Both the position numbers and the translations under genes were made by a program. 42,706 nucleotides of DNA from a virus. Location: the IMG/VR virus record IMGVR_UViG_3300044742_000054, positions 1-42,706 of that record. One strand, written 5' to 3'. Shown here piece after piece: positions 1,161-19,809 of this stretch; the stretch's first letter is position 1, and every line of letters starts with the position of its first letter. The notes under the pieces are model-generated. The model worked only from the letters and a program-made list of their open reading frames with translations, made no database searches and was not told the DNA's origin.

Positions 1161-1763
1161 ATGCAACCCTCTAGACTCGTTATAGACCGTTTAATCGCAT
1201 CCGGCGCACGGATTAACCCCGTTCCGCAGGGTTTTATCTCCAATTTAGCCTCTACACCAGCTGCTCCCACGCTGCGCGGAATGCTCACCTCTCCCGCCGC
1301 CGTGCGCCAGTACATAGAAGCAGGCGCGGCGACGCTGACGATCGTAAGCGCTCGCACGCAGACCCGCTATACGTTCAAGTTCAAGCGTCCCGACGCAAAA
1401 CCCGGCGAACCCCTGCACGCCCGGCCCGTATGGGTCAGCCTGCTTTCCGGCCCCGATAACGAGTCCAATTACTCGTTTCTTGGAACGTGCTTCCCCGACG
1501 TGCCCAAGGGTGACCCGGTCCCCGTGGGGACGCCTTTCCGGTATCGCCACTCCCACAAGTCCAAGGTCACCGGCGACGCCCCCAGCGTCCGCGCCTTGAC
1601 GTGGTTCCTGACCGTGCTTTACGCCGCAGGCACGGTCCCGACGACCCTGCTCGCGCAGGCCGAGTGCTGGCATGAAGGTCGCTGCGGGCGGTGCGGGCGG
1701 GCGTTGACCGTGCCCGCGTCCATTGCCTCCGGTTTCGGTCCCGAGTGCATCCAGCACGTTTGA
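1161..1763 (+). CDS. DUF6011-type zinc-finger protein
   Basis: A 200-residue protein, first gene of the first rightward operon. Its last 35 residues carry Cys169, His171, Cys175, Cys178 and Cys196 in the pattern CGRCGRALTVPxSIxxGxGPEC. This is the signature of the DUF6011 zinc-binding domain found in many phage and actinobacterial proteins; its biochemical role is unknown. The N-terminal 160 residues are mixed alpha/beta with no motif I recognise. The start is fixed by a strong Shine-Dalgarno AGGAG at 1151-1155 in the context CTAGGAGCCTCA, a leader type that recurs before several genes of the phage. The domain call is good; the function is open. A role in nucleic-acid binding is only inference from the zinc finger. 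Confidence 0.8.
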   Translation: MQPSRLVIDRLIASGARINPVPQGFISNLASTPAAPTLRGMLTSPAAVRQYIEAGAATLTIVSARTQTRYTFKFKRPDAKPGEPLHARPVWVSLLSGPDNESNYSFLGTCFPDVPKGDPVPVGTPFRYRHSHKSKVTGDAPSVRALTWFLTVLYAAGTVPTTLLAQAECWHEGRCGRCGRALTVPASIASGFGPECIQHV

Positions 1764-1777
1764 ACGGAGCCTAGACC

Positions 1778-2161
1778 ATGCCGCCCCGTATCCACTCCAC
1801 TTGCACCCTGCCCGGCTGCGCCAACCCGCACTATGCGACCGGGCTATGCCGTGGTCACTACGTGTCCCGGCGCGCCGCCGCCGTGCGCGCCGCGTCGCAC
1901 CCTATCCACGCCCCCGCGCCCTGCGCGGTGCCGCCCGCTCCCGCGCCGTTCTACGCCACGGCAGCACAGGTGCAGGCGCGCGAGGCGCAGCGCGCCGCCG
2001 ACGTGCCCGCACCTCCCGCGCCGCCTAGCGTGCCGCCTGCGCCCGTCCTGACCCCTGCGCGGGCCACTCCTGACGTGCCCGCGCCGCCCGGCGCGCCTAT
2101 GCTTCCCATCATCCCGGCCCCGCCGGGCGTCCCGCTTCCCCCGCCGTTCCGCAAGTCCTAA
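1778..2161 (+). CDS. Small zinc-knuckle protein with Pro/Ala tail
   Basis: A 127-residue protein, 14 bases after the preceding gene. Residues 9-28 contain Cys9, Cys14, Cys24 and His27 in the pattern CxxxxCxNPHYATGLCRGHY, a zinc-binding motif often seen at the start of phage HNH-type and other DNA-binding proteins. After it, from about residue 35 on, the chain is nearly all Pro, Ala and Arg and is probably disordered. There is no HNH catalytic core, so nuclease activity is not claimed. The ribosome site is only moderate (GGAG about 14 bases upstream). GC content here is extreme, so several other frames are also open; the Cys/His motif is the main reason for choosing this one. Confidence 0.6.
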   Translation: MPPRIHSTCTLPGCANPHYATGLCRGHYVSRRAAAVRAASHPIHAPAPCAVPPAPAPFYATAAQVQAREAQRAADVPAPPAPPSVPPAPVLTPARATPDVPAPPGAPMLPIIPAPPGVPLPPPFRKS

Positions 2162-2195
2162 CCTCGCAGCATCCAACCTCTAGGAGCAAGTCACC

Positions 2196-3659
2196 ATGTC
2201 ATCCGCAACCATCCCGCAAGCGCTTTCCCTGTTCAACGCCCTGTCGCACGCTGGCAAGGTGCAGACCATCACCGCGCTCTATCACGGCGCGCCCGGTTTC
2301 GACGTGCCGGGCAAGTCCGGCGGCGAGTTGGACTACATCGTCGCCGCATGGGTCAACTCCGGCGCACTTCCCGCCGACGTGCTGGCGCTCGCCTGCGCGA
2401 CGACCGTCGCGGAGTCGCAAACGCTACTGGCGGTGCCCGCTGTGCCCGCTGTGCCCGCTGCGCCCGCTGCGCCCGCTGCGCCCGCTGCGCCCGTGGCGCA
2501 GGCGGCGATCGTTGCCGCGGCGGACGCCGTCGCGGAAAGGCTCGCCGCAGAGCGCGCCGCCGCGCAGCCCGTGCAGACTCCGCTCGCCGCCGCGATCGTG
2601 ACCCCGGTCACCCCGGCATTCGACGCCGCAGCCATGCCCCGCCAGCGCTCCCGCGTGCTGGCCCGCAGCCTGTTCGCGGACGTGCCTCAGGATGTGCGCG
2701 ACGCGATCCCGGCGGAGTTGACCGTCGAGTACTACGCGCACAACGACGCGCCGCCCGTGGACCCGGACTATGCGTTTACCGGGCACATCCTCGCCGATTG
2801 TCTCGGCGCGCTGGCCGCGTCGCCCGCCATTAATCTTTGGTTCAAGGGGTCGCGCGCCACGGGCAAAACGGAGATGGCGCGGCAACTCGCGGCGCGTTGC
2901 GGGCGTCCGTTTTTCCGGTTCAATTTCAACCGCTCGACGACGAGCGAAGATATCCTCGGCGGGCAGGCTATCGTCAACGGGGACACGCAGACCCTGCCCG
3001 GCCCGGTCGCGATCGGCGCGCAAACGGAGGGCGCGATCGTGCTGCTGGATGAGCCGACCTACACCGTCGCCGCTCACGTCGCCAGCTTGAATCCCATCCT
3101 AGAGCGCGACGGGGCGAAGGTCCGCATCCCGCGCACCGGGGAAGTACTGCACATTGCGCCGGGCGTGTGCTTCATTGCCGCCGACAACACGGGCGGGCAC
3201 GGGTCCACGTCGAACGAATACCACGGGCGCACGCAGTTTGGCGCGGACACGCTGGATCGTTTCGGGAAGTTCATTGCGTTCGATTACTTGCCCGCCGACG
3301 TGGAGCGGCGCGTGCTGCGTGCGCTTGTGCTGCGGGCCTGCGGCGTCAAGCCTAGCAATGACCTCGCGCGCAGCGTGTGCAAGCTGGTAGGCATTTGCCG
3401 CAGCAAGGCGGATTCGGGAGAGTTGGAGGGCGCGCCAAGCTTGCGCCGCGCGGTAGCGTGGACGGTATCGATCGTGCAGGGGTTCGCCGCAGCGGACTCC
3501 TATGTGTCATGCGTCGTTAACGCCGCGCCGGAGGATAGCCAAGAGGCGTTGCGGCAGATTTTCGCCGCATCGTGGGACCACGGCACGCAGCCTGCGGCCC
3601 TCGACGTGAACGCTAACCCGTTCGCGGAGGGCGACGACGCCAACGCGATCCCGTTTTGA
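2196..3659 (+). CDS. MoxR/CobS-like AAA+ ATPase
   Basis: A 487-residue AAA+ ATPase. The first 180 residues are low-complexity Ala/Pro, including a run encoded by a 9-base tandem repeat. The ATPase domain starts near residue 200: Walker A GSRATGKT at 218-225, Walker B with Asp285-Glu286 (VLLDEP) and a sensor segment around FIAADNTGG. The order and the GRTQFGADTLDRF stretch fit the MoxR/CbbQ/CobS group, which remodels or loads metal into partner proteins together with a von Willebrand factor A protein. That partner is the very next gene. The strong leader CTAGGAGC at 2180 fixes the start. No cobalamin-synthesis gene is present, so a cobaltochelatase role is unlikely. A chaperone-like role during infection is inferred. 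Confidence 0.85.
   Translation: MSSATIPQALSLFNALSHAGKVQTITALYHGAPGFDVPGKSGGELDYIVAAWVNSGALPADVLALACATTVAESQTLLAVPAVPAVPAAPAAPAAPAAPVAQAAIVAAADAVAERLAAERAAAQPVQTPLAAAIVTPVTPAFDAAAMPRQRSRVLARSLFADVPQDVRDAIPAELTVEYYAHNDAPPVDPDYAFTGHILADCLGALAASPAINLWFKGSRATGKTEMARQLAARCGRPFFRFNFNRSTTSEDILGGQAIVNGDTQTLPGPVAIGAQTEGAIVLLDEPTYTVAAHVASLNPILERDGAKVRIPRTGEVLHIAPGVCFIAADNTGGHGSTSNEYHGRTQFGADTLDRFGKFIAFDYLPADVERRVLRALVLRACGVKPSNDLARSVCKLVGICRSKADSGELEGAPSLRRAVAWTVSIVQGFAAADSYVSCVVNAAPEDSQEALRQIFAASWDHGTQPAALDVNANPFAEGDDANAIPF
2433..2495 (+). repeat. Tandem 9-bp repeat, seven copies
   Basis: Seven consecutive copies of GTGCCCGCT, later GCGCCCGCT, inside the AAA+ gene; they encode a Val/Ala-Pro-Ala run. 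The copies change from GTG to GCG partway and the last is imperfect. Slippage-prone low-complexity linker. Confidence 0.9.
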
Positions 3660-3694
3660 TCCTCACTCATCCATTCATCTAGGAGCAAACGAAC

Positions 3695-5908
3695 ATGCAA
3701 CCGAAACCGAAACGCAAATCCACCTTGCAGCCGAAAACGAACGCCGCCGCGCAGAACGCGCTCACCTCTGCCGCGATATTCGGCGTGCAATCGTCCCTGT
3801 TCACGGGGCGCGCCAAAGTAACCGCGCTAGGGCTGCAACGCGGCGTTAGCGAAATGATCCGCCGCGTGTATGCCTGCGTGCCGGGCGTCGCGCCGATGAA
3901 GCTCGACGCGCCCGCAATCAAGGTAACGTACATCGGGCAAGACGCCTGCGCCCGGTACGATTGGGGCCGGGACAAATCGGGCAAGCTCGCCGTCGCGGGG
4001 GTAATCAACTTGCCCGCGACCGGCGAGCCGGACGCCCTGATTCCGCGCAGCGTGGCGGACCAGTACACCGGCAAAGCGCTCCATGAGATGGGGCATTTCC
4101 TGTTTACTTCCCTGCCCGCGTTCGGCCATGCGATCCGCGACGCCGCGCGCCGCTACAACGTATCGGAGGATTTTGCGAAAAGCGTCATTAACGCGCTGGA
4201 GGACGTGGCGGAAGAGCGCGAGTTGATCCGCAGCGGGTACGCGCCGGGCGCGGGCGCGATGCTGCGGGCGCTCGTTGAGAAATGCACCTCCGACATTCCG
4301 CACGATGCGTACGGCACGATTAAGGCCTTTCCCGTGACTCTGGCATTCGGCCTGCGCCACTACACGCCCGCGACGCGCCCGCTCGTTGCCGCGCTCCCGC
4401 CCGTGCTGCGCGCGATTTATGACGACGCCGCGCGCGGCATGGCGGCGCTCCCCCAGCGCGCGATCGGCGATCCCGCTTCCATGCAACCCGTAATCGACGT
4501 GGCAAACGAAGTGCTGCGGGCGCTCGCCGCGCTGCGCGACGCGCAACCTCCGCAACCCCCGCAGCCGGATGAGCCGCAGGGGCCGGAGGGGCAACCGTGC
4601 GACGACGGCGAGCCGGGCAGGCCCGGCGACGGCGAGCCGGGCAGGCCCGGCGACGGCGAGCCGGGCGGCGACGGTGACGATGACCTCGACGGTGACGATG
4701 ACCTCGACGGTGACGATGACCTCGACACGGGCGACATGGGAGAGCAAGGCGACACGCGCAGGCCCGGCGACGCGCTCCCGCCTAACCCGACGCTCCCGCC
4801 GGACGCGACGCCGGACCCGCAGGAACCGCAGCCGGGCAACGACGACGACGACGACGCAGGCGAGCCGGGCGAAGAAAACACGCCCGCAAAGGATGAGGGG
4901 TCCGACGACCGCCCCGACGCGATCGATACGCGCGACCTCAACGGCACGCCGCTCGACGCCGACATGCAACCGGAGCAGGCGGGCGAGCCGGGCGACGGTG
5001 CCAGCGGGCTTGCCAATGATGCCGTGCGCGTCGTCAAGGCGAGCGAAGCGTCAGCATGGGATAAATCCGACGTGCAGGATAAGGTAAAGCAAGCGCTCAC
5101 CGCGAGCGCGCGCGTCGCGCACGGTCTACGCACCTTGCTTGACACCTCCGCACGCGACGCGCGCGAGGGCGGGCACCGTAACGGACGCCTCGACATGTCG
5201 GCGCTAGCGCGGATCAAAGTCGGCGCGGAAAATGTTTTCGAGCGCCGCGAATATCGCGACGGGTCCGACGCTGCGGTTTCGATCCTGATCGATCAATCGT
5301 CGTCAATGAACATGGACGCGCGCTATGTTGCGGCGCGCACGCTGGCCGGGACGCTTTCCAAAATCATCTCCGGTTGCGCGGGCGTGCGCTGTGAGATTCT
5401 CGGCTTTCATAGCGGGGGCGGCGCGGGCATGACCGATGCGACGCTAGATCAATTGATAGCCGACGTGGGGACCGATGAGGACGGCGACATGTGGCGCAGC
5501 CTCAAGGGGGATTGCTGCATTACCGTGTTCAAGGGGTTCGCGGAGTCGCACGCGACCGGCATGGCGCGCCTTGGTTCCTGCTATGGCACGGGCGGCACGC
5601 CGGATGCTGCGGCGATAACGCACGCCGCGCAGCGCTTGAACAAAGAAACGGCAGACCAGCATATTCTCATCGTCATTGCCGACGGCGAGGGTTCGCCGCG
5701 CGACGTGCTGGCGCGCATCGTGTCGCGCATCGAACGCGAGGGCACCATGCTTATCGCGATCGGCATTGAGCAAGACATGTGCGAGGCATTCACGCATCGT
5801 TGCAAAGTGGACGATGTCGCCAAGCTCAACGAGTCCGGCCTGCACGCTCTGCTCCGCGCGTTGTCGCAAAGCGCGCTGGCGCAGGATATCCGCGCCGGGA
5901 ACGATTAG
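3695..5908 (+). CDS. CobT-like VWA-domain protein
   Basis: A 737-residue protein built like cobaltochelatase subunit CobT. The N-terminal region has a metal-binding HEMGH motif (His130-His134) in a helical segment. A long acidic Asp/Glu/Pro/Gly linker at about 290-450 contains two sets of tandem repeats. The C-terminal von Willebrand A domain carries a complete metal-ion-dependent adhesion site: DQSSS at 533-537, Thr635 and Asp663. AAA+ ATPases of the MoxR/CobS group normally work with such VWA proteins, and the ATPase gene lies 35 bases upstream. The start follows CTAGGAGCAAACGAAC, shared exactly with the gene at 5979. No CobN-type large subunit exists here, so the substrate is unknown; host-protein remodelling or virion assembly are possibilities. 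Confidence 0.85.
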   Translation: MQPKPKRKSTLQPKTNAAAQNALTSAAIFGVQSSLFTGRAKVTALGLQRGVSEMIRRVYACVPGVAPMKLDAPAIKVTYIGQDACARYDWGRDKSGKLAVAGVINLPATGEPDALIPRSVADQYTGKALHEMGHFLFTSLPAFGHAIRDAARRYNVSEDFAKSVINALEDVAEERELIRSGYAPGAGAMLRALVEKCTSDIPHDAYGTIKAFPVTLAFGLRHYTPATRPLVAALPPVLRAIYDDAARGMAALPQRAIGDPASMQPVIDVANEVLRALAALRDAQPPQPPQPDEPQGPEGQPCDDGEPGRPGDGEPGRPGDGEPGGDGDDDLDGDDDLDGDDDLDTGDMGEQGDTRRPGDALPPNPTLPPDATPDPQEPQPGNDDDDDAGEPGEENTPAKDEGSDDRPDAIDTRDLNGTPLDADMQPEQAGEPGDGASGLANDAVRVVKASEASAWDKSDVQDKVKQALTASARVAHGLRTLLDTSARDAREGGHRNGRLDMSALARIKVGAENVFERREYRDGSDAAVSILIDQSSSMNMDARYVAARTLAGTLSKIISGCAGVRCEILGFHSGGGAGMTDATLDQLIADVGTDEDGDMWRSLKGDCCITVFKGFAESHATGMARLGSCYGTGGTPDAAAITHAAQRLNKETADQHILIVIADGEGSPRDVLARIVSRIEREGTMLIAIGIEQDMCEAFTHRCKVDDVAKLNESGLHALLRALSQSALAQDIRAGND
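4604..4668 (+). repeat. Tandem 24-bp repeat in the VWA gene linker
   Basis: Two complete 24-base units (4604-4627, 4628-4651) and a partial third encode DGEPGRPG repeats in the acidic linker of the VWA protein. Confidence 0.9.
4670..4723 (+). repeat. Tandem 18-bp repeat in the VWA gene linker
   Basis: Three exact copies of GACGGTGACGATGACCTC (4670-4687, 4688-4705, 4706-4723) encode DGDDDL repeats. Calcium-binding-like composition, but no defined calcium motif. Confidence 0.9.
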
Positions 5909-14726: not shown

Positions 14727-16835
14727 ATGTCTTTCATGGACACGGACCTCGCCCGCTCGGGCTTGGTCGCCACCGACCTATCGTCGATCGAAACACCGAA
14801 CCCCTTCGCCCCCACCACCTCGCAGTACAAGATTCCTTACTGGTTACCGGACGGCACGCCGCATCCGTTCATGTACCGCGAGCGGCTGGAGATACCGCGC
14901 CCCGATCGCGGCAAGTACAACCAGCCGTCGAAAGAGCAGGCGATCGCAGCAGGCCGACCCGAAACCGACACCACCTACCCCTACCTCAATCCATTCATCC
15001 TGCAACGCCGCTTCACCTCCGTGCAGACGGGGCTGACGTGGGCGCAGGTGCGCGCGATCCCGCCGCCCCACGGCGACGGCAAACTGTTCTGCCTCACCGA
15101 GGGCGAGAAGAAAGCGGTGGCGGTGGGGCTGTTCTGCGCGCGGCTGGCGATCGGTATCGGCGGCTGCTACAACGGCGTGGTGCGGGCGTGGGACGGCTCG
15201 TTCGACGTGCATCCCGCGCTGCTGGAGATCATACAAGCGGGCGATCGGGTGGAAGTGGTGTTCGACGCCGACATGCGAACGAATCGCAACGTGGAGCAGG
15301 CGGCGGGTTCGCTGCGCCGGGCGCTGGTGCGGCGCGGCATCCGCGTCTCGTTCGTCGTGGTGCCGCCGACCGTGAAGGGCATCGACGATTGGCTGATGGC
15401 CCACTCGGTGCAGCAACGGGTGGCGGCGTATGAGAGTTTGCAGCGGCTGACGTTCGATCGCGGCGAGTTGCAGGAGGATCGCCCGTCGCTGATCGCTTAC
15501 CTCGACTTGCCGACCAACGACGACGCGCTGATCACCAACGAGGCGGCGGCAGGCCGCGTCCTCGACATGCATGAGCGGTACAAGGACCGCATCTGGATCG
15601 AAGACAGCGAAGACATGATGTATGAGACGGTCACCAGCGACACGCCGCAGCCGGTCACCGACGCCTTCATCGACAAGCAGCCGAAATGGTTTCAGGCGCA
15701 CATCAACCACAGCTTCTCCCCGGCCAAGATCAAGAACGCCTTCGCTGCGCTCGCCGCTGACCAGCACCGCCACCGCAACGCCATCCATGCATATGTCGAT
15801 AGCTTGAAGTGGGACGGCGTCGATCGCTTGGAGTCGATGTTCGTGCGCGGGTGGGGCGCGGTGGACGATCCCTACACCCGCGCCATCGGCAAGGCGTGGC
15901 TGGTCGGCCTCGTTGCAAGGGTGTACCGGCCCGGCTGCGACATGCAGACCATGCTGATCTTGGAGGGGAAGCAGGGCATCGGCAAATCTCGCTCGCTGAA
16001 GGCTCTGGGCGGGCGCTGGTACGTCGAGACGACCGACAAGATGGATAACAAGGACTTTCTGCTCGCCGCGCACAGGAGCCTCATTTTCGACCTTGCCGAG
16101 CTAGGTGCCTACAAATACGCCGACTTCGCCTTCGTCAAGGGGCTGCTCTCCACCGCCGTCGATCTGATCCGCGCCCCCTACGGGCGCAAGGCCGAGGTCA
16201 AGCCGCGCCGGTTCATCATCGTCGGCACCACCAACGAAGACCTGTACCTGCGCGACCTCACCGGCAACCGCCGCTTCTGGCCGATCGCCTGCGGCAACAA
16301 GGTGGATATCGATTGGATCGAAGCCAACCGCGATCAGTTGTTCGCGGAAGCCAAGGTGCGGCTCGACGCCGGGGCCGAGTGGTGGGTGGACGACAGCCTG
16401 ACGCTGGCGGTGCTGGATGCCCGCATCGCCCGCGACCCGTGGGAGGATGCGATCGAAACGGTGCTGCTCGACGTGCAGCGCGGCGCGGCCCTCGTCCTCA
16501 ACAACGTGCCTTATCACTTCGCCCCGTCCGAGGTGCTGCTGCGCGCGGTGAGCAGCGGCAACAACAGCAGCCCGAATTACGCCCGGCTGCATGGACTGAT
16601 GAAGAAGATGTTCCCCGAGTGGGAGCCGTACCACTACGTCAACCCGCTGAAGCCGATCAACGTCGGGGGCGTGATGAAGCCGTCATCGCGCGGGTTCCGC
16701 ATCCCGGTGAGCATCGCGCAGACCGTGGTTACGCCGATCGACGCGGCGACGGTGACCATCTTGAACAGCAAACCCCTTGGCGAGTCGAACGACAGCGCAT
16801 CGCCGCCGGACAATCCATTTATCGTAGGGCCGTGA
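14727..16835 (+). CDS. TOPRIM (DUF3854)-VirE primase-helicase
   Basis: A 702-residue replication protein. The N-terminal half has a TOPRIM-like DUF3854 domain, with LTEGEKKA (Glu125) and FDADM (Asp180, Asp182), the acidic residues that bind metal in DnaG-type primases. The C-terminal half is a virulence-associated E (VapE/VirE) P-loop domain: Walker A GKQGIGKS at 414-421, then LIFDLAEL and a sensor region VGTTNEDLYLRDLTGNRRFW. Proteins with this layout serve as primase-helicases in phages and genetic islands. It is the last replication gene. The ATG follows CTGGGAG by 6 bases. A membrane or capsid-related role of VapE is not suggested here. Confidence 0.9.
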   Translation: MSFMDTDLARSGLVATDLSSIETPNPFAPTTSQYKIPYWLPDGTPHPFMYRERLEIPRPDRGKYNQPSKEQAIAAGRPETDTTYPYLNPFILQRRFTSVQTGLTWAQVRAIPPPHGDGKLFCLTEGEKKAVAVGLFCARLAIGIGGCYNGVVRAWDGSFDVHPALLEIIQAGDRVEVVFDADMRTNRNVEQAAGSLRRALVRRGIRVSFVVVPPTVKGIDDWLMAHSVQQRVAAYESLQRLTFDRGELQEDRPSLIAYLDLPTNDDALITNEAAAGRVLDMHERYKDRIWIEDSEDMMYETVTSDTPQPVTDAFIDKQPKWFQAHINHSFSPAKIKNAFAALAADQHRHRNAIHAYVDSLKWDGVDRLESMFVRGWGAVDDPYTRAIGKAWLVGLVARVYRPGCDMQTMLILEGKQGIGKSRSLKALGGRWYVETTDKMDNKDFLLAAHRSLIFDLAELGAYKYADFAFVKGLLSTAVDLIRAPYGRKAEVKPRRFIIVGTTNEDLYLRDLTGNRRFWPIACGNKVDIDWIEANRDQLFAEAKVRLDAGAEWWVDDSLTLAVLDARIARDPWEDAIETVLLDVQRGAALVLNNVPYHFAPSEVLLRAVSSGNNSSPNYARLHGLMKKMFPEWEPYHYVNPLKPINVGGVMKPSSRGFRIPVSIAQTVVTPIDAATVTILNSKPLGESNDSASPPDNPFIVGP

Positions 16836-16936
16836 TGACCCGCAGCGGGCATTCGGGGGCGGATAGGTCGTGCCGCCGCTCCTAGAGGGTAGACGGGGGG
16901 CTACCGTAAGTGCCCGCACCCCCCATCCATACAACC

Positions 16937-17032
16937 ATGCTGCGCCGACTTCTTGAAGCGTTGCTGATCATCGCGGTGTGGGCGTTCGTGCTGTACGTCT
17001 TGATGTGTGCTTTCGAGGGAGGATGGAAATGA
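16937..17032 (+). CDS. 31-residue membrane microprotein
   Basis: A very short gene (MLRRLLEALLIIAVWAFVLY and so on) with one strong hydrophobic helix preceded by two arginines, which would place its N-terminus in the cytoplasm. It overlaps the next gene by ATGA at 17029, and this overlap also fixes the start of that gene. No good ribosome site is visible upstream, which lowers confidence. Function unknown. Confidence 0.5.
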   Translation: MLRRLLEALLIIAVWAFVLYVLMCAFEGGWK

Positions 17033-17589
17033 ACGAGAAGATCGCCGCGCCGCCGCGAGAGCCGTGCAAGCCGCAGCAATGTCGTTGGACGCCGATGGCC
17101 TGCGCCAACGTAGGCCGGTGCCTGTATGCTGACGCACAGGTGCCGCCGCCCCCTGCGCCCGCCGACGCGCTGATTGCGAGGATAACTGGCTATCTCTCCA
17201 CCGGGGGATTGTTCAATCCCGAGCTTGCCCAACATGACGCGGTGCGCGATTTACTCATCGACTGCCGTGACCGCATCGCCGCGCTGGACCGAGACAACGC
17301 AATGCAGCATGAAGGGTTGCGGCAAGGTGTAGACAGGATCGCCGCGCTGACGGCAGAGCGGGACAAGCTACAGGAATTGGCGAATGACGGAATCCATGCC
17401 GAACGCGCCGCGCTGATCCGCGCCACCAAGGCCGAGGCCCGCGCTGATGCGATGCGAGATGCGCTACGCAATGCAGTCATCGACCGCCGCATCTGCAACC
17501 TATGCAAGACTTACTTTGGGGACGGCGGGGAGCAGCACGTCCCCGGTTGTCTCGCAGCCCTCGACGCCGCGCTGAAGGAGCCGAAATGA
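17029..17589 (+). CDS. Coiled-coil protein with C-terminal zinc finger, paralogue 1
   Basis: A 186-residue protein. The start at 17029 is set by the ATGA overlap and GGGAGG six bases upstream; the frame is open to 16978. N-terminal cysteines (CKPQQC) are followed by a Pro-rich hinge (DAQVPPPPAPADALIARI), then a long coiled coil (about 75-155, with RIAALTAERDKLQEL and AEARADAMRDALR), and a C-terminal CNLC-x10-H-x3-C zinc-finger motif ending in GCLAALDAALKEPK. The next gene is its tandem paralogue and shares a 51-bp and a 41-bp identical DNA segment with it. The function is unknown; coiled coil plus zinc finger suggests a dimeric adaptor or nucleic-acid-binding protein. Confidence 0.75.
   Translation: MNEKIAAPPREPCKPQQCRWTPMACANVGRCLYADAQVPPPPAPADALIARITGYLSTGGLFNPELAQHDAVRDLLIDCRDRIAALDRDNAMQHEGLRQGVDRIAALTAERDKLQELANDGIHAERAALIRATKAEARADAMRDALRNAVIDRRICNLCKTYFGDGGEQHVPGCLAALDAALKEPK
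17131..17181 (+). repeat. 51-bp repeat, copy 1 (with 17709-17759)
   Basis: Identical over 51 bases to 17709-17759. It encodes the Pro-rich hinge shared by the two tandem paralogues. Confidence 0.9.
17545..17585 (+). repeat. 41-bp repeat, copy 1 (with 18075-18115)
   Basis: Identical over 41 bases to 18075-18115. It encodes the common C-terminus of the paralogues and contains the AAGGAG ribosome site for the next gene in both places. Confidence 0.9.
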
Positions 17590-18122
17590 CCGCCGCGCCG
17601 CCGCGAGAGCCGACTGAGGCGATGGACATGGCGGGCTATCGCGTGCTGCAACATTACGCTGAGGCTGACTGCCGCCCGACAGCAAAGCAGGTGTGGCGAG
17701 CCATGTACGACGCACAGGTGCCGCCGCCCCCTGCGCCCGCCGACGCGCTGATTGCGAGGCTGAACTCAATCGTGATGCACCAATTTATTGTGCTTGACCG
17801 CGAAGCAGTGGCGATGGCCCGCGACCGCATCGCCGCGCTGACGGCAGAGTTGGCGGAGCAAGAACGTACTGGAAGCGACTGGCTGCGGCAGCGAGATGCT
17901 GCGCTGGACCGCGCCGAGCAAGCCGAGGCCCGCGCTGATGCGCTGCGGGAGTTGCTGCGGGGAGAAGTAATACACGGTATGACCAAAGACCCGCGTAGCT
18001 ACGCGATTACGCATCACCTTTGCCAACTGTGCAAAGCGGATTGGGTCGCGGGAGCGCCAGAGACACACTCGACAGGTTGTCTCGCAGCCCTCGACGCCGC
18101 GCTGAAGGAGCCGAAGACGTGA
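17586..18122 (+). CDS. Coiled-coil protein with C-terminal zinc finger, paralogue 2
   Basis: A 178-residue tandem paralogue of the preceding gene. It keeps the start region APPREP, the Pro hinge DAQVPPPPAPADALIARL, the coiled coil (RIAALTAELAEQE to AEARADALRELLR) and the terminal CQLC-x11-H-x3-C plus GCLAALDAALKEPK. The middle has diverged, and the N-terminal cysteine pair is lost. ATGA overlap with the first copy and AAGGAG just upstream fix the start. Identical DNA at both ends with diverged centres suggests recent duplication, conversion or strong selection on the ends. Confidence 0.75.
   Translation: MTAAPPREPTEAMDMAGYRVLQHYAEADCRPTAKQVWRAMYDAQVPPPPAPADALIARLNSIVMHQFIVLDREAVAMARDRIAALTAELAEQERTGSDWLRQRDAALDRAEQAEARADALRELLRGEVIHGMTKDPRSYAITHHLCQLCKADWVAGAPETHSTGCLAALDAALKEPKT
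17709..17759 (+). repeat. 51-bp repeat, copy 2
   Basis: Second copy of the hinge segment at 17131-17181, 578 bases downstream. Confidence 0.9.
18075..18115 (+). repeat. 41-bp repeat, copy 2
   Basis: Second copy of the C-terminal segment at 17545-17585; it supplies the ribosome site for the GTG start at 18119. Confidence 0.9.
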
Positions 18123-18307
18123 CACCGCATAAGCCGCGCCGTGATCACGTCACCGGCCCCCGTGTCGAGCAGGTGGGCGATCCGGCAGCGGCGTGCCTGC
18201 TGGCGGCGTGTCTCGGCTACCCCGCCCACGTTGGCGCGGGTCTTGCTTCGGTTGTCCCGCAACCCCCTGTTTTGCCCCCTCCTGTAAAGAAAGGCGACAT
18301 GCCATGA
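18119..18307 (+). CDS. 62-residue protein, GTG start
   Basis: A small gene with GTG at 18119 overlapping the previous stop (GTGA), AAGGAG at 18105-18110, and an ATGA overlap with the PEP-CTERM gene at 18304. These three features together make translation likely. The product has a short Ala/Leu-rich central helix (DPAAACLLAACLGYPAHVGAGLASV) between a basic N-terminus and a Pro-rich C-terminus. It is not recognised. Confidence 0.5.
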   Translation: MTPHKPRRDHVTGPRVEQVGDPAAACLLAACLGYPAHVGAGLASVVPQPPVLPPPVKKGDMP

Positions 18308-19011
18308 AGAAACTCCTGCTCGCTCTTGCCCTTGCGGCGCTCGCTGCCCCGGCGTCCGCCATCCTGCAACTCTCGGCCAACATCAACGGGATGCTGTTCA
18401 ACTGCGCCGATCAGGCCGCGTGCGACACCAACCTCGCCGTGGGCCAACTCCAGATCGCCAACCAGACCTTCAACGGGGTGGAGATCGTCGGCTCCTCGCA
18501 GTTCCAGACCATCGGCACCACCAACTTCCTCAACACCTCCTCGTTCCAGTTCATCAACCACAACCTCGCCGCCGCAAGTGTCATTTTCGCCGTCAGCGGG
18601 ATCAATTTCCTCGGCCCGGTCAACAACTTCTCCGCAAGCGGCAGCGGAACGTGGCAGAGCGCCAACGGCTCGACCATCAACCTGTCATGGTACGGCGATC
18701 CCGCCAACGCGCAGGGCGCGGACAGCCCGCTCGACCTCCCCGGCCTTCTGCTTGCCAGTTTTGCGGATGCGGCAGGGAGTGATGCCGACGCCTTCGCCTA
18801 CAGCGTCGGCGGGCCGTTCGCGGCGGCAGGGCTGCACAGCATGAGCCTCGGCACCAGCGGCGTGCTGACGGCGTGGGACGGCGTAGCGGGTAACGAGAGC
18901 GTGCTGGTCGGTCGGGCGCAAGCCCTGATCACCCAAGAGGTGCCGGAGCCTGCCACGCTGGCGCTGATGGGGCTGGCGCTGGTAGGCGCAGGCGTCGCGC
19001 GTCGGCGGTGA
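18304..19011 (+). CDS. Secreted PEP-CTERM sorting-signal protein
   Basis: A 235-residue exported protein. Residues 1-19 are a signal peptide (MKKLLLALALAALAAPASA). The body is rich in Asn, Ser, Gly and Ala with beta-type patterns and two cysteines (FNCADQAAC). The end is a complete PEP-CTERM signal: VPEP at 213-216, a hydrophobic helix and a terminal RRR. In bacteria, exosortase (EpsH/XrtA) recognises this signal, removes it and releases or anchors the protein at the cell surface, often alongside exopolysaccharide. No exosortase is in the phage, so the host must supply it. The ATGA overlap with the preceding gene fixes the start and shows it belongs to the operon. A role in altering the host surface, for example masking receptors, is inference. 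Confidence 0.9.
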   Translation: MKKLLLALALAALAAPASAILQLSANINGMLFNCADQAACDTNLAVGQLQIANQTFNGVEIVGSSQFQTIGTTNFLNTSSFQFINHNLAAASVIFAVSGINFLGPVNNFSASGSGTWQSANGSTINLSWYGDPANAQGADSPLDLPGLLLASFADAAGSDADAFAYSVGGPFAAAGLHSMSLGTSGVLTAWDGVAGNESVLVGRAQALITQEVPEPATLALMGLALVGAGVARRR

Positions 19012-19253
19012 CCCTCTGCTACCTTTGCGGCAGGCGGGTTACCCAGTACTGCGGCAAGGTTTCGATCCACAGGGAGCGGCGCGATAACACGCGCCGTCTT
19101 TCTGTCTGCCCCACCACCGGCCTGCCGTGGAAGACGCTGCTGCGGCAGATCGATCGGCTGGCTTCGGTCAAGGAGCCGCCGGAACAAACACCGGGGGCAC
19201 CACCACCACCGGAGGAACCACGACCACCGGGCTGTTGTCCTGCGTCCCGGTAG
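19008..19253 (+). CDS. Possible small CxxC protein at the convergent junction
   Basis: An 81-residue frame starting at GTG 19008 in a GTGA overlap with the PEP-CTERM gene. The first half has Cys4, Cys7, Cys15 and Cys34 (CYLCGRR, YCGK, VCPTTG) and a helical stretch (WKTLLRQIDRLASVKE), which looks like a genuine zinc-binding fold. The last 25 residues are Pro-rich and antisense to the end of the leftward lipoprotein gene, overlapping it by 86 bases. The coupling and the cysteines favour a real gene; the lack of a clear ribosome site and the overlap argue for caution. Confidence 0.45.
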   Translation: MTLCYLCGRRVTQYCGKVSIHRERRDNTRRLSVCPTTGLPWKTLLRQIDRLASVKEPPEQTPGAPPPPEEPRPPGCCPASR

Positions 19254-19809
19254 TCGGCGCGTTCTGCCCCGGCCCGCCGACGAGGACGAACCCATCGCGG
19301 TTGGTGATGTCGTTCTCGGTGTGGATGTTGGTGATGCTGGTCGGCAACAGCGCCTGCGGCACCGGCTTGAACGCGGCGAGCGCGGCGTAGGACGCCTGTG
19401 TGGTGGTGGCTTGGTTGTTCGACTGTACTTTCCCGAGTTGATAACCGAAATACGACGACACCAAGGCCGTCGTCGGTCCCGCGAACACCGCCGCCCATTT
19501 CAACGCGCGATCCTCCTGTGTCTCGGGGATGCGCGGCAGTTGCACGGCAATGTTCTGCGCGTGCCCGTCGCTGCGACCGACGAGGGCCAGCGCCATGATC
19601 GCCATGCTCTTCGTTTGTTGATCGCTGCGCTCCGCGATCTGCGCCATCGCGATGTACCGCGCCTCGTCGGCTCGCGCCTTCGCCACATCGACCTCGCGCT
19701 GCGACGTTATCGTCAGCCGGTACGCTTCCATCTGCAACACGAAGTTGGGGTCGATGGTGGTGGCGCATCCAGTTATGCATGACATGCATAGCGCGGCGAC
19801 GATTCGCAT
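19168..19809 (-). CDS. Putative outer-membrane lipoprotein
   Basis: A 213-residue protein, last gene of the leftward late block. The N-terminus has a short hydrophobic stretch and a lipobox ITGC with the acylated Cys15. A charged helical segment follows (30-70), then a hydrophobic segment (104-126, ALKWAAVFAGPTTALVSSYFGYQLG) that could span a membrane. The C-terminal 60 residues end in Val/Pro repeats. A lipoprotein with a second membrane segment is reminiscent of single-gene spanins, but those have their membrane helix at the very C-terminus, so this is only one option. Virion or lysis function is inferred from its place after the tail genes. Confidence 0.65.
   Translation of the reverse strand: MRIVAALCMSCITGCATTIDPNFVLQMEAYRLTITSQREVDVAKARADEARYIAMAQIAERSDQQTKSMAIMALALVGRSDGHAQNIAVQLPRIPETQEDRALKWAAVFAGPTTALVSSYFGYQLGKVQSNNQATTTQASYAALAAFKPVPQALLPTSITNIHTENDITNRDGFVLVGGPGQNAPTTGTQDNSPVVVVPPVVVVPPVFVPAAP

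Follow-up and report, generated by a model that had tools for sequence, protein, structure and literature searches.

The PEP-CTERM/exosortase (EpsH) system sorts proteins in Gram-negative bacteria. In flocs and biofilms, such as those of activated sludge, soil and sediment, exopolysaccharide is bound to the cells by PEP-CTERM proteins. According to Haft et al. 2006 (PMC1569441; papers are cited by PubMed Central identifier), proteobacterial PEP-CTERM genes carry a 17-nucleotide (nt) motif with TTTACA at its end, followed by 32–92 nt of spacer and a sigma-54 site. This box was found in 99 of 167 genes, on average 71 nt ahead of the start codon, and the genes are mostly single-gene units (PMC1569441). 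In Aquincola, pepA is RpoN1-dependent with a -24/-12 site at the mapped start, and an RpoN1-controlled PEP-CTERM protein moves exopolysaccharide from the soluble to the cell-bound state (PMC9850573). Here we describe a gene of this kind, g5, in the viral IMG/VR record IMGVR_UViG_3300044742_000054. The window is the entire record of 42,706 bases, in which an early strand (DNA polymerase, helicases) converges with a late strand (terminase, capsid, amidase, tail).

We propose, with a probability of about 0.6, that g5 is a single-gene accessory unit (moron) encoding a host-regulated, host-sorted surface or matrix protein carried by phages. At the level of sequence the gene combines a signal-like start, a PEP-CTERM tail, purifying selection and varied phage contexts with a box of the sigma-54 plus TTTACA type, which stands directly upstream in the window and in about a third of the relatives. 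The system and its box are already known, and the phage-encoded members appear to be unreported: no earlier report of phage-encoded PEP-CTERM proteins was found in the open-licence PMC literature, and the relevant passages in PMC12642866, PMC4886054 and PMC9378336 concern bacterial proteins or a reference.

The g5 protein and its family in phages

The g5 protein matches PF07589 with 29.6 bits (cut-off 20.7) and TIGR02595 with 25 bits (cut-off 16). Between its signal-like start and its tail a beta-sandwich domain is predicted by AlphaFold2 (AF2) from a 37-sequence alignment, with a predicted local distance difference test score (pLDDT) of 89.6 and a predicted template modelling score (pTM) of 0.81; this model supersedes an earlier one from 6 sequences with a pLDDT of 61.5. 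Similarity of the sandwich to carbohydrate-binding modules and to a Bdellovibrio protein is weak (best Z 9.1). Its Z of 8.1 with TmCBM61 (2xom), over 120 residues, is close to the level that the tool regards as common among unrelated folds, and the Foldseek/VIA matches are weak, with template modelling (TM) scores below 0.47 among the PDB matches listed. No exosortase was found in the window (0/1) or in the relatives (0/40). We regard the g5 product as a probable surface or matrix protein.

When six g5 sequences were used as query, viral contigs gave 102 candidate stretches, 40 of them g5-family loci, so that with the window the family comprises 41 proteins, 36 of them distinct. Thirty-four of the 41 have a Cys pair, and of the seven that do not, L072 is truncated; a simple signal-peptide pattern is seen in 31, several others having trimmed or truncated starts. 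The C-terminal end is complete in 39 proteins; the literal PEP occurs in 33 of these, and the remaining six ends read REP, QEP, LEP, PET (two) and PEA. In an alignment of 37 rows (36 relatives and the window) nine positions are invariant, all of them in the domain ahead of the tail. Substitution was followed in 17 hand-picked family pairs. Eight pairs with 74–92% amino acid (aa) identity gave ratios of nonsynonymous to synonymous rates (dN/dS) of 0.10–0.39; setting aside one pair without a defined dS and one without synonymous change, the other 15 pairs range from 0.10 to 0.46. These ratios show the coding sequences of the family to be under purifying selection.

The tail could in principle be the whole point of the gene. 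An abundant g5 protein would then act as a decoy that occupies the host exosortase, blocks sorting of the host's own PEP-CTERM proteins and loosens flocs before lysis. Each of the 39 members whose end is complete does keep the tail in some form, and host PEP-CTERM proteins are described as binding exopolysaccharide to cells (PMC9850573). However, the tail alone would be enough for a decoy, yet the domain is also under selection, as the nine invariant positions before the tail and the low dN/dS across the whole gene indicate; this counts against the decoy, which we regard as quite improbable.

The family occurs in many phage settings. The gene for TerL (phrog_2) lies on 17 of the 40 family records, and in others, neighbours of the family gene match TerL (L054, L056), endolysin (L060), major head protein (L047), tail fibre (L058) and DNA polymerase (L070); in L075 a portal gene is also present, next but one to the family gene. 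Twenty neighbours were tested for families, and five had no match; for some short contigs the phage origin is the IMG/VR assignment alone. Phylogenetically, the window clusters with L048/L049 (support 90/87), as part of a clade of eight members that has full support. The proteins of L045 and L051 are 89% identical and yet lie in different surroundings, which suggests that the gene has moved between phages.

Such patchy presence, including absence from the closest relative of the window (G005), would also be expected if a host gene had been captured by chance with its promoter and were of no use to the phage, the host-like box having arrived with the gene. We consider passive capture improbable, since dN/dS among the phage copies lies well under 1, the phage contexts are many, and the signal and tail have been retained repeatedly.

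Neither g5 nor two relatives had a match among 50,697 annotated phage records; so far, therefore, the family appears in uncultured phages only. Bacterial genome contigs gave no relative in 50 and 65 candidate stretches, in searches that were insensitive (one or two query sequences), and g5 and one relative had no match among plasmids. Chromosomal proteins similar to g5 presumably exist. Searching plasmids and phages with the tail peptide also gave no match, probably because of the low-complexity filter.

Several other PEP-CTERM genes were seen in these records. The g5 relative has a second, different one behind it in tandem at L055:8717-9442, L060:8690-9382 and L051:8721-9461, and in L055 and L060 the pair lies downstream of an endolysin-type gene. 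In L052 a homing-endonuclease-like gene (1626-2582, minus strand; phrog_314, E 3.7e-18) overlaps the PEP-CTERM gene by 4 nt at its end. A protein with PDQGLP repeats (L033:2936-3553, L036:2254-2871, L044:7015-7623, L045:4916-5569, L077:4176-4559) adjoins, or lies one gene off, PEP-CTERM genes of two different families; it is either a real partner or a common neighbour. Tails of the PEPxxWA type, which are typical of alphaproteobacteria, occur in L076, L077, L078, L081 and L082, and phage PEP-CTERM tails may track the exosortase type of the host.

The control region of g5

The sigma-54-type site ahead of g5 (Table 1) is one of three strict TGG-N8-TTGC[AT] sites on both strands of the window. 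Up to 200 nt upstream, such strict sites precede 9 of 38 family members vs. 4 of 548 other genes in the same loci. The arrangement of TTTACA followed after 25–95 nt by a sigma-54-type site was found in 10 of 38 members (8 of 36 without the near-duplicates L049/L050 and L056/L057) vs. 0 of 545 other genes, the observed distance being 40–84 nt. These upstream counts exclude L061, L072 and L076, which lie near contig ends, and the control genes were called by a simple gene caller.

A matrix made from ten phage copies (motif 1, consensus tGTCGg..aaCTTTACA), applied leave-one-out with a cut-off of 9.5, detects the motif in 14 of 38 members vs. 7 of 545 controls; all 14 also have a sigma-54-like site. 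Two of the seven control matches are the L056/L057 site itself, viewed from the neighbouring gene, and L044, at 9.4, is excluded from the 14. Scored with a matrix from ten other phages, the motif-1-like site of the window is the best in the whole 42.7 kb (12.0, the next being 8.6). Members that bear the box have longer upstream gaps (70–561 nt) than the others (p 0.011, with L044 counted as box-bearing).

In L034, too, the matrix finds a site, here ahead of an unrelated PEP-CTERM gene. A sigma-54 site follows at a distance of 73 nt, which falls within the 32–92 nt given in PMC1569441. The PEP-CTERM gene (L034:4-519, minus strand), which thus has the full box, stands at the very edge of the viral record and may be host DNA. 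Among three other PEP-CTERM genes taken as a control for the box, L034 is the one that has it.

Downstream, g5 is followed after 65 nt by a terminator-like hairpin with a T-rich tail, and hairpins with T-rich runs also lie downstream of the g5 relatives in L045 and L051. The promoter region falls within the upstream frame g4, which holds both the sigma-54 site and the motif-1 site, and the hairpin falls within the downstream frame g6; g5 therefore looks like a single-gene unit.

If g5 is the host-regulated accessory gene that we propose, it would be transcribed by the host sigma-54 polymerase together with the PEP-CTERM response regulator PrsR, and its product would be exported through Sec. 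Because no exosortase was found in the phage, sorting would fall to the host exosortase, which would cut the tail and free the sandwich domain into the exopolysaccharide layer. By analogy with the Aquincola PEP-CTERM protein, g5 might then modify the matrix surrounding the infected cell and change the cell's surface or its state of aggregation. What the phage would gain is a guess: the infected cell or clump may be shielded from further phages, or infected cells may be retained in the matrix. More broadly, we put forward tentatively, at somewhat less than even odds, that the genes of diverse phages tap the biofilm-matrix programme of the host, the PrsK/PrsR-RpoN pathway switching them on and the host exosortase placing the product in the exopolysaccharide.

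Several observations weigh against this interpretation. The motif-1 site of the window, like that of L045, stands in reverse orientation and comes only after the promoter, within the predicted leader, where it could repress or do nothing. The motif-1 score is below the cut-off in 24 of 38 members, and the box is absent at the PEP-CTERM gene of L036 and at a Nitrosospira plasmid gene. The phage motif was compared with Haft motif 1 (PMC1569441) by length and TTTACA end. Any surface effect of g5 would be carried over from bacterial PEP-CTERM proteins, and the exosortase, PrsR and RpoN of the host are assumed.

It could also be argued that g5 encodes a surface protein driven by the early/late programme of the phage, the sigma-54 box being a relic of bacterial origin. 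Many members indeed sit within structural operons and have no box, and the gene comes after the late genes in L044 and G025. Against this, the box has been kept even though almost no other upstream DNA of the relatives can be aligned with the window, and despite protein divergence to 60–68% identity. We therefore consider control by the phage programme unlikely.

The accessory locus and its six reading frames

The first-pass annotation had taken g5 as part of a chain of six reading frames, g1 to g6, co-translated as one functional unit downstream of the replication genes, possibly a surface-modification or exclusion system. The position holds, the VapE-like helicase/primase gene being the final conserved replication gene upstream of the accessory locus. 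The six frames are also present, with 4-nt ATGA or GTGA overlaps at all five junctions (Table 1).

Table 1. Features of the accessory locus and its borders in the window
Feature	Position	Strand	Basis
VapE-like helicase/primase gene	14727..16835	+	PF05272, E 1.7e-66; relatives in G005, G025, L044, L045
g1, 31 aa, single-transmembrane frame, doubtful gene	16937..17032	+	Codon score +4.7 (marginal)
g2, 186 aa, coiled coil and C-x2-C...H...C end, probable gene	17029..17589	+	Codon score +16.8
g3, 178 aa, g2 paralogue, probable gene	17586..18122	+	Codon score +15.6; alignment with g2
g4, 62 aa, GTG start, probably no gene	18119..18307	+	Codon score -4.8
Sigma-54 -24/-12 type promoter site of g5, TGGCGCGGGTCTTGCT	18232..18247	+	14/14 on own -24/-12 scoring
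Motif-1-like site (presumed PrsR site), TGTCGCCTTTCTTTACA on minus strand	18283..18299	-	Between promoter and start codon
g5, 235 aa, secreted PEP-CTERM beta-sandwich protein (predicted)	18304..19011	+	PF07589, TIGR02595, codon score +72
Signal-peptide-like N-terminus of g5, MKKLLLALALAALAAPASA	18304..18360	+	By inspection; helix 2-12 in model
PEP-CTERM tail of g5, residues 213-235	18940..19008	+	PF07589 match; C-terminal helix 217-234 in model
g6, 81 aa, GTG start, probably no gene	19008..19253	+	Codon score -16.5
Terminator-like hairpin, T-rich tail, 65 nt after g5	19076..19097	+	Folding z -4.57
Lipoprotein-like gene, convergent, opens late strand	19168..19809	-	Relatives in G005, G025, L044; in L048-L050 by clustering

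The coding status of the chain is uneven. A codon model trained on long genes of the same phage supports g5 strongly and g2 and g3 modestly, whereas g4 and g6 score negative and g1 is marginal; per codon, g4 is equalled or surpassed by 58 of 175 spurious frames and g6 by 70 of 143. Of the six frames, a separate simple gene caller retained g2, g3 and g5; the other three, g1, g4 and g6, were dropped. By inspection, Shine-Dalgarno-like sequence is missing ahead of the g1 and g6 starts; g1 has an alternative GTG start at 16910, and the g6 frame is antisense to the end of the lipoprotein-like gene. No relatives of g1, g4 or g6 were found. Judging from these sequence features, g4 and g6 are probably not genes. 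The overlaps themselves are weaker evidence for a unit than their appearance suggests: among the 43 same-strand junctions between called genes, 8 have a 4-nt overlap, seven of these eight outside the cassette, and ATGA, GTGA or TTGA ends 22 of the 45 called genes of the window, so that an overlapping start codon is often automatic.

The relatives speak in the same sense. Related major capsid proteins are encoded by 24 viral loci. The closest long relative, G005 (41,311 bases, capsid 84% identical), has relatives of the helicase and the lipoprotein; between them it holds a lone 71-residue frame in the helicase direction, and no PEP-CTERM match was obtained there at E up to 1. In G025 (the same record as L046; 40,799 bases), where the best-stretch identities are 46% for the polymerase, 39% for the helicase, 63% for the capsid and 60% for the lipoprotein, a g5 relative with 60% identity occupies the same locus in the opposite orientation and points with the late genes. 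L044 has this inverted layout at the same locus as well. The g5 relative of L045 runs in the helicase direction downstream of a 75-residue gene, that of L048-L050 is convergent with the lipoprotein and lies downstream of a 189-residue gene, and that of L047 lies one gene beyond a capsid gene. All of these PEP-CTERM-bearing relatives, together with L043, are without relatives of g1, g2, g4 and g6, the very outcome that the first-pass annotation had named as evidence against its unit. Compared with g1-g4 and g6 at E up to 0.05, the 40 family loci gave a single weak match of 43 residues, to the start of g3, at L041:18438-18566, equal to L046:15845-15973 (E 0.003 or 0.012 by search); this distant match in L046 is the sole trace of g3 in these relatives.

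A single six-gene surface-modification or exclusion system would be in keeping with the five successive overlaps and with AAGGAG in the LKE codons of g2 and g3, which could serve as the ribosome site of the next frame. Against it stand the relatives that carry g5 without the other five frames and, in L044 and G025, in the opposite orientation; the non-coding scores of g4 and g6; the promoter-like and terminator-like elements that flank g5 as its own; and the failure to find relatives of g2 and g3. We reject the six-gene unit on relatives, codon scores and the signals around g5, and find it scarcely credible; a role in surface modification or exclusion is possible for g5 alone.

The paralogues g2 and g3 deserve separate mention. 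They are 55% identical as aligned and have the C-x2-C...H...C end in common. They share exact DNA blocks of 51 nt (17131-17181 = 17709-17759) and 41 nt (17545-17585 = 18075-18115), the second of which contains the common AAGGAG; over the pair dN is 0.41 and dS 0.69. Exact blocks lying between diverged parts look as if recombination keeps the two genes alike. Domain and profile searches gave no family match for g2. No relatives of g2 or g3 were confirmed among 33 candidate stretches of viral contigs, none were found among a further set of 30 or among annotated phages, and g2, the only query used there, had none in the 24 records with related capsids. PADLOC returned a single match, of a coiled-coil stretch of g3 to HEC-07 (18 bits, 52 residues), and no membership in a known defence system was found.

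Elsewhere in the window, positions 2196-5908 hold two early genes that are similar to those for subunits of cobaltochelatase, one encoding an AAA+ protein (phrog_249, E 3e-38) and the other a VWA/CobT-like protein (PF11775, E 1.2e-4).

Significance and comparison with known systems

If the proposed role of g5 is true, viruses would be writing into the exopolysaccharide matrix through a phage-borne family under host-type regulation, and the matrix of the flocs and biofilms that phages infect would be remodelled at any time when the host itself makes matrix. The question whether aggregation, and hence phage access, is altered via the sorting and control system of the host becomes testable. In general, the g5 family could serve as a marker for phages whose hosts have a PEP-CTERM system.

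Compared with the PEP-CTERM/exosortase system as described in PMC1569441, g5 has the same N-terminal signal, PEP motif, helix and Arg cluster, the long upstream gap, and the TTTACA motif and sigma-54 site upstream. It differs in being phage-encoded, with no exosortase found in the phage records, and the TTTACA motif of the window and L045 is reversed and lies downstream of the promoter, unlike that of the bacterial regulon (PMC1569441). Aquincola PepA (PMC9850573; NF033554) is likewise of the PEP-CTERM type, and its gene too has a sigma-54 promoter and is followed by a hairpin, but g5 scores 26.9 bits against NF033554, below the family cut-off of 80, and is therefore no PepA member. Carbohydrate-binding beta-sandwich modules such as TmCBM61 (2xom) have a sandwich arrangement weakly similar to that of the predicted domain, at an identity of only ~9%.

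Phage morons are known to alter the host surface, superinfection exclusion being brought about through lysogenic-conversion genes. The g5 gene departs from them in that its promoter is of the type of the host's sigma-54 PEP-CTERM regulon, and no integrase was detected in the window. Like these morons, it is an independent accessory gene with its own apparent promoter and terminator, placed at a module border and encoding a predicted surface product.

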